Below are positions 52,195 through 52,491 of a DNA stretch of 64,000 nt, one piece after another. The stretch's first letter is position 1. Each line of letters begins with the position of its first letter. The translations under genes were made by a program, and so were the position numbers. Under the pieces are notes generated by a model that saw only the letters and a list, made by a program, of their open reading frames with translations, had not been told where the DNA came from and searched no databases. Location of the stretch: assembly GCA_017472665.1 (NCBI GenBank), contig JAFUOS010000003.1, forward strand, positions 16,510 through 80,509. Direction: 5' to 3'. Source of the DNA: Tyzzerella sp. (GTDB lineage Bacteria > Bacillota > Clostridia > Lachnospirales > Lachnospiraceae).

Positions 52195-52226
52195 AGGGTC
52201 ACCTTCCTTAAATGATAAATAATAAA

Positions 52227-52253
52227 CCGGAAAACTCCGATAAAGTTTTCCGG
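52227..52253 (-). terminator. leader terminator (attenuator) upstream of metQ
   Basis: CCGGAAAACT (52227-52236) and AGTTTTCCGG (52244-52253) form a perfect 10-bp stem with a 7-nt loop. The minus strand continues TTTATTATTT. It lies between the Met/Cys-rich leader ORF and the structural genes, so it can switch off the operon early. Confidence 0.85.
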
Positions 52254-52298
52254 CTCAAAGCAACATCATTCCGCTTCTAATTTATACGGTACTATAAT

Positions 52299-52412
52299 CT
52301 ATCTCTTTGATGGAGAACATATCGAAAAAAGTTTACAAAAAGCCATGCACATACAACAAGTACACATGCACATCTCCATCATCGTATTCACAACTGAGTT
52401 AAGCTTTTTCAT
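52299..52412 (-). CDS. Met/Cys-rich leader peptide of the met-cys operon
   Basis: 37 residues: MKKLNSVVNT, then a run of Met and Cys (MMEMCMCTCCMCMAFC), then KLFSICSPSKR. Seven Met and seven Cys codons occur, 13 of the 14 after the start codon and 12 of these within residues 11-26 (52335-52382). The AGGAG site lies 8 nt before the ATG at 52412. A consensus promoter is 50 nt upstream and an intrinsic terminator 46 nt downstream. The layout is that of trpL/hisL-type attenuation: ribosomes stalling at Met or Cys codons would allow read-through. It is translated probably only as a sensor. Confidence 0.85.
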   Translation of the reverse strand: MKKLNSVVNTMMEMCMCTCCMCMAFCKLFSICSPSKR

Positions 52413-52462
52413 GATGCATTCTCCTCTCTTTCATATACCAACTTTTTTGGTAGGTTGGTTGC

Positions 52463-52491
52463 ATTATAATTCCTTTTTCCTACTTTGTCAA
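52463..52491 (-). promoter_or_regulatory. promoter of the met-cys leader and operon
   Basis: On the minus strand TTGACA (52486-52491) and TATAAT (52463-52468) are 17 bp apart, a full consensus promoter. Its -35 box lies 19 nt after the dgt-like stop. The transcript would begin near 52457 with a small hairpin (ACCAAC/GTTGGT, 52437-52459) ahead of the leader ORF. Confidence 0.9.

Follow-up and report, generated by a model that had tools for sequence, protein, structure and literature searches.

How is the metQ-metN-metI-cysK operon of this Tyzzerella genome controlled, and what part is played by the short open reading frame (ORF), rich in Met and Cys codons, that lies between its promoter and a terminator? 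The locus was examined within the window, i.e. the whole 64,000-nucleotide stretch of DNA analysed, which comes from an assembly of 1.66 Mb that is 65% complete. The gene order on the minus strand is dgt (the gene upstream of the leader promoter), promoter, leader ORF, terminator, a second short ORF, metQ, metN, metI and cysK. An earlier note on this DNA had reported the consensus promoter, a 37-codon ORF with a Met/Cys tract, and the four genes 3' of it, and all of these are borne out, the promoter and ORF by the sequence and the genes by protein family models.

52491-52463, minus strand: promoter TTGACA-17-TATAAT, 12 of 12 consensus matches
52455-52437, minus strand: operator-like inverted repeat ACCTACC-AAAAAA-GTTGGT, spanning the expected transcription start
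52412-52299, minus strand: leader peptide ORF, 37 codons, with SD AGAGGAG at 52427-52421
52382-52335, minus strand: Met/Cys tract, proposed stall sites
52257-52213, minus strand: intrinsic terminator and U-rich tail, stem 52257-52223 with 16 pairs including G-U
52056-51199, minus strand: metQ, methionine-binding lipoprotein, circularly permuted (PF03180 and MetQ models)
51183-50404, minus strand: metN, importer ATPase (best match TIGR02314, under the curated cut-off since the C-terminal part is absent)
50411-49701, minus strand: metI, permease (best match NF008049, a little under the cut-off)
49663-48731, minus strand: cysK, cysteine synthase A (TIGR01139, over the cut-off)

The operon proteins have features of their own. 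MetQ is a circular permutant, in which residues 189-273 match canonical residues 29-113 and residues 32-168 match canonical 128-271; the same swapped segment order is seen against PDB 4k3f, and the MetQ proteins of the best 80 relative loci (below) align with it as one segment. MetN has 259 amino acids and covers only positions 1-240 of the 343-residue MetN model, the absent C-terminal part being presumably the Met-binding NIL domain, and the short metN-to-metI distance recurs in loci L002 and L082. Further along the same strand lie an ORF of 298 amino acids with short degenerate EMQR-type repeats (48504-47608) and an ordinary bacterial large signal recognition particle RNA (46944-46683, 184 bits).

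The leader peptide, MKKLNSVVNTMMEMCMCTCCMCMAFCKLFSICSPSKR, contains seven Met (start counted) and seven Cys in its 37 residues, and its Met/Cys tract ends 11 codons ahead of the leader stop, with one more Cys in between. The whole assembly has a single exact copy of the core, ATGNNNATGTGYATG, which is that of the leader itself, and 43 more places that match it with one mismatch. Conservation of the tract, on which the earlier note had staked its reading, could be judged against the nearest relative, a locus of the same genus (L002) that carries a homologous leader. Every Met and Cys of the tract is retained there, four Cys codons differing synonymously, and the only further changes are Thr to Met and Ala to Asp, though the N-terminal flank is unconserved, with codons 4-8 ahead of the tract all differing in meaning.

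Methionine genes in Gram-positive bacteria are mostly described as being under S-box and T-box RNAs. No Rfam family was found at the leader, either at the gathering threshold or in a permissive scan of 52560-51950, and specifically no T-box and no S-box (SAM-I); the earlier note had recognised neither core.

The same note had suggested searching for this leader in relatives. We assembled 83 metQ loci, comprising L001-L003 and the best 80 of at least 585 matches (L031-L110), a set biased to close MetQ relatives and containing many metagenome-assembled genomes (MAGs); among the matches listed, most of the closest are MAGs with labels such as Lachnospiraceae, Oscillospiraceae and Clostridia. A leader was counted when an ORF of 15-60 codons lay within 500 nt of metQ, had an SD ahead of it and contained four or more Met in a stretch of 15 codons. 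Such leaders were present in 36 of the 83 loci (34 when at least five Met in 15 codons were demanded) and absent from 47, as against 0 of 1660 shuffled sequences. Among 762 other upstream regions they were present in six, two of these being the same leaders viewed from a neighbouring ORF, and among 27 loci with canonical metQ in none, a soft control since metQ may not be the first gene there. The occurrence of a Met-rich leader upstream of this type of MetQ is thus not due to chance. As scanned, the leaders carry 4-11 internal Met and 0-7 Cys each, and in sum the 36 trimmed leaders hold 273 internal Met and 100 Cys; Met is their constant residue.

Met-rich leaders also stand ahead of metY in L117, L131, L132 and L137, which were chosen by Met content; a stricter SD test was passed by 4 of 47 metY loci, two of them being the L117 and L137 places. 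When diverged Met leaders were sought with a peptide profile, 5 of 291 genomes gave a match, although the profile itself includes sequences from some of the genomes matched, and one of the five matches was weak (E 0.005) and lay within a 163-codon open frame. The peptide profile is therefore a poor estimate of leader spread, and synteny was used instead.

What do the relatives without a leader have in its place? Twenty of the 47 leaderless relatives were scanned with Rfam, and in two a T-box lies immediately 5' of metQ (L060:469-717 and L103:3223-3446). In both, the codon after GAAC, which we take to be the specifier place, is AUG, so these T-boxes are probably Met-specific.

Whether the leader would sense methionine alone is a separate matter. 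In the joint-sensing reading of the earlier note, a ribosome stalled at Met codons or at Cys codons would permit read-through, making the operon responsive to both sulfur amino acids. A share for Cys is not established by the comparison. Cys is plentiful, with seven in the window leader, 100 internal residues over the 36 leaders and at least one in 34 of them; four of its codons changed synonymously between the window and L002, Cys being kept, and cysK belongs to the window operon. Against this, the leaders of L070 and L089 have no Cys at all, none of the 29 leader loci whose downstream sequence reaches 3.5 kb or more has cysK there, and repeats of the TGCATG type may persist partly for RNA pairing. 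The idea that Cys codons track cysK was also rejected, as most of these 29 leaders have Cys nonetheless (L082 has cysK upstream). Joint sensing thus strikes us as possible but on balance doubtful; in the window lineage, the tract's Cys codons may make the leader responsive to Cys as well.

A terminator follows the leader in all 36 leader loci, in 34 by scan (13-49 nt past the stop) and in two placed by hand; in the window the earlier note was right that one is present but put its stem at 10 bp, where the scan gives the 16 pairs listed above. The candidate alternative pairings involve three further segments:

52381-52373, minus strand: region 1, TGATGGAGA, within Met codons; nine pairs with 52316-52308, -12.8 kcal/mol
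52323-52305, minus strand: region 2, antiterminator 5' strand at the 3' end of the leader ORF, supported by the stalled-ribosome fold
52260-52239, minus strand: region 3, antiterminator 3' strand, containing the terminator 5' arm and the stretch just before it

The pairing of regions 2 and 3 (2:3) is predicted at -10.8 kcal/mol in the window and -14.1 kcal/mol for its counterpart in L002. A different antiterminator had been proposed in the earlier note, pairing 52279-52289 with 52237-52247. It can be drawn (-4.7 kcal/mol), but it is weaker than the pairing with the leader 3' end and lacks the same counterpart in L002, whose post-stop stretch pairs otherwise, and we rejected it.

Comparison of RNAduplex energies with shuffles over the loci gave a mean z of -0.85 for 2:3 and of -0.36 for the pairing of regions 1 and 2 (1:2; not significant, p = 0.09). 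That test is weak because region 2 is long, and each region was then paired with its own partner and with partners swapped among the 36 loci. By this measure, which like our count statistics treats related loci as independent, 2:3 coevolves for the leader 3' end (p = 5e-5, the floor of 20,000 permutations) and for the whole stretch (p = 4.5e-4), as does 1:2 (p = 0.001), and the terminator pairing 3:4 gives z = -16.6, whereas the control pairings 1:3 (p = 0.26) and 2:4 (p = 0.25) do not. This coevolution is seen over the set of loci: taken alone, the window is not singled out, its 2:3 pairing being matched or beaten by 114 of 200 shuffles and its 1:2 pairing by 72 of 200.

Folding of the RNA up to region 3 points the same way. 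Mean sequestration of region 3 was 0.89 with a stalled ribosome and 0.48 with a ribosome at the stop codon (34 of 36 loci had the higher value with the stalled ribosome), a contrast that is partly trivial because a stalled ribosome leaves more RNA exposed; in free RNA the mean was 0.68, the stalled value being higher in 27 of 36 loci. When the upstream part was shuffled, stalled sequestration fell from 0.88 to 0.76 (p = 5e-4, 30 of 36 loci). In the window, free RNA (0.88) sequesters the region no less than stalled RNA (0.82), the value with the ribosome at the stop being 0.49. In full-length equilibrium folds a stalled ribosome does not keep the complete terminator from prevailing in 34 of 36 loci, so that antitermination would have to be kinetic.

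These results also bear on the notion that the ORF encodes a small Met/Cys-rich protein acting in trans, for example in metal binding, with the terminator incidental. A composition rich in both residues and the retention of the tract residues in L002 would suit such a protein. Its length and flanks vary, though, Cys is missing at two loci, a terminator is present at 36 of 36, coevolution links the leader 3' end to the terminator arm, and the window leader peptide has no Pfam match; we regard a trans-acting product as highly improbable.

The coevolution of 1:2 and 2:3, set beside control pairings that do not coevolve, instead indicates an attenuator of the trp type, and features typical of trp and his attenuators are present: an SD-led short ORF between promoter and first gene, a recurring enrichment in Met codons, and a terminator before metQ. 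We conclude that the leader very probably controls metQNI-cysK by transcription attenuation of the trp type, with methionyl-tRNA as the signal read. The ribosome-mediated attenuation that the earlier note had put forward for this operon thus gains comparative support, from the recurring Met-rich leader, the terminator at every leader locus and the coevolving pairings; the tract residues retained in L002 and the T-boxes ahead of metQ in L060 and L103 also speak for it. Promoter, leader, terminator, target genes, Met-codon recurrence and pairing coevolution were read from the sequence and its comparison; translation, stalling, termination and the signal itself are what we infer in the following scheme. 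Transcription would start near 52456 and a ribosome would load on the leader ORF. With ample Met-tRNA, the ribosome would reach the stop codon and mask region 2, the terminator stem would form, and the transcript would end near 52220. With Met-tRNA scarce, it would stall within the tract and mask region 1, leaving region 2 to pair with region 3, which holds the terminator 5' arm, before the 3' arm is transcribed; with 2:3 formed, RNA polymerase would proceed into metQNI-cysK. In the event that no ribosome loads, 1:2 pairing would release the terminator to form.

A second short ORF, absent from the earlier note, was an unexpected find.

52194-52117, minus strand: uORF2, MEFYFEELVRKNYRFGRMRCCTEFE, between the terminator and metQ, with CGA-ATG at 52146-52141

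uORF2 is also found ahead of metY in the same genome (L113 and L163). The hexamer CGAATG is the commonest one 130-50 nt upstream of metQ, occurring at 25 of 83 loci (in L003 it lies inside no ORF having a start). It is likewise the commonest 130-40 nt upstream of metY, at 36 of 70 loci (38 within 160-30 nt), these being the 70 closest from a search in which 134 of 291 genomes gave a match. Hexamers made of any other Arg codon and ATG, with frame not demanded, have summed locus counts of 7 for metQ and 6 for metY, and in the long ORFs of L031-L110 CGA accounts for 15 of 169 Arg codons preceding Met.

In its best-conserved form uORF2 has about 18 codons encoding MxxxFExLVRxNFRFGRM, followed mostly by a Cys or stop codon; of the 38 metY cases, 18 have a Cys codon directly after CGA-ATG, 14 a stop and six another codon. 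A search of 291 genomes for NFRFGRM, with any Arg codon allowed, gave 19 matches, and 15 of them are short ORFs, 12 ahead of metY and three ahead of metQ. The last Arg is CGA in all 15, while the first is CGT, AGA, AGG or CGA; the four matches without CGA sit in open frames of 132-719 codons. The frame is thus conserved as a peptide, and its last Arg at the level of the codon too.

CGAATG accompanies 18 of the 36 metQ loci with a Met leader versus 7 of the 47 others, and 0 of the 27 canonical-metQ loci, yet L118, with canonical metQ, has uORF2. For most copies of uORF2 ahead of metY no Met leader was detected; the window copy comes after the Met attenuator. A uORF2 profile run over the phylum gave 17 places in 13 of 249 genomes. 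Two are the known places in the window genome, and of the 15 others the 12 examined (L141, L145 and L151 left out) had no CGAATG in the stretch inspected. A Rho/rut reading of the spacer between uORF2 and the gene was unsupported, the spacer being A-rich with C at 0.148 and G at 0.131.

Tentatively, and with slightly more doubt than belief, we suggest that uORF2 represents a new type of short regulatory ORF in Clostridia, serving sulfur amino-acid genes, with the CGA-AUG pair as sensor. CGA is decoded by an inosine tRNA, which forms an I-A pair with it, and CGA in the P site would slow decoding of the single Met codon, conferring sensitivity to Met-tRNA; alternatively, Met or SAM could cause the Arg-Met nascent chain to arrest. 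With uORF2 behind the Met attenuator, the window would have two checkpoints, and uORF2 may be the more novel of the two. If the suggestion is true, a uORF2 with a codon-level constraint on CGA-AUG would be both a testable single-codon sensor and a marker of sulfur-gene regulation in uncultured bacteria.

Could uORF2, or a repressor at the start-site inverted repeat, be what mainly governs the operon, the attenuator being vestigial in the window genome? The repeat is common to the window, L002, L052 and six metY loci, its pattern occurring in 9 of 153 upstream regions versus 20 of 3060 shuffles (it was picked after examples were seen); the uORF2 motif is recurrent as well, and the window's own pairings do not exceed shuffles. 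Promoter, leader and terminator are nevertheless intact there, and comparison with L002 shows constraint on the tract residues. We consider a vestigial attenuator unlikely, and keep to a working one that reads methionyl-tRNA.

How, then, does this candidate attenuator compare with known systems? The T-box (RF00230), which precedes metQ in L060 and L103, would also sense tRNA charging, but at the window leader no T-box was matched and the reader would be a translating ribosome. A Met-codon leader at the very site where some relatives retain a T-box would amount to a swap of one tRNA-charging sensor for another.

The remaining comparisons draw on portions of each paper cited. In the full-text literature, a body that leaves out most subscription papers and in which CGA-codon leaders were sought as well, the sole direct Met/Cys-leader precedent found is metL of S. 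lividans TK24, a leader (CMCRRMC) annotated ahead of metNIQ (PMC8079986). Like the window leader it is short, with Met and Cys codons before the same importer genes; unlike it, metL has a leaderless start and no clear terminator in that account (PMC8079986), whereas the window has an SD-led ORF, an intrinsic terminator, a candidate antiterminator that coevolves over the loci and a Clostridia host. Control through a met 5'UTR in Xanthomonas is not presented as a leader peptide in the portion drawn on (PMC6230763). Leaders of cys operons in actinobacteria are likewise short ORFs with Cys codons before sulfur genes, but their runs of Cys codons lie near the stop and, as far as the source is used here, have no terminator hairpins (PMC1262725); in the window Met is dominant, Cys is interleaved with Met and a terminator follows. 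There is also a likeness to the trp/his-type attenuators of proteobacteria and the his leaders ahead of hisS genes in bacilli, which share cognate codons in a leader ORF, 1:2, 2:3 and 3:4 pairings and an intrinsic terminator (PMC2965389). The window differs from these in that methionine would be sensed, a case not described in that portion of PMC2965389. What appears to be new, judged by sequence comparison, is a probable Met-specific variant of the trp-type attenuator in Clostridia, together with an unexplained second ORF; complete attenuators built on Met-codon leaders, present across many Clostridia, would stand apart from the S-box and T-box picture of methionine genes in Gram-positive bacteria.
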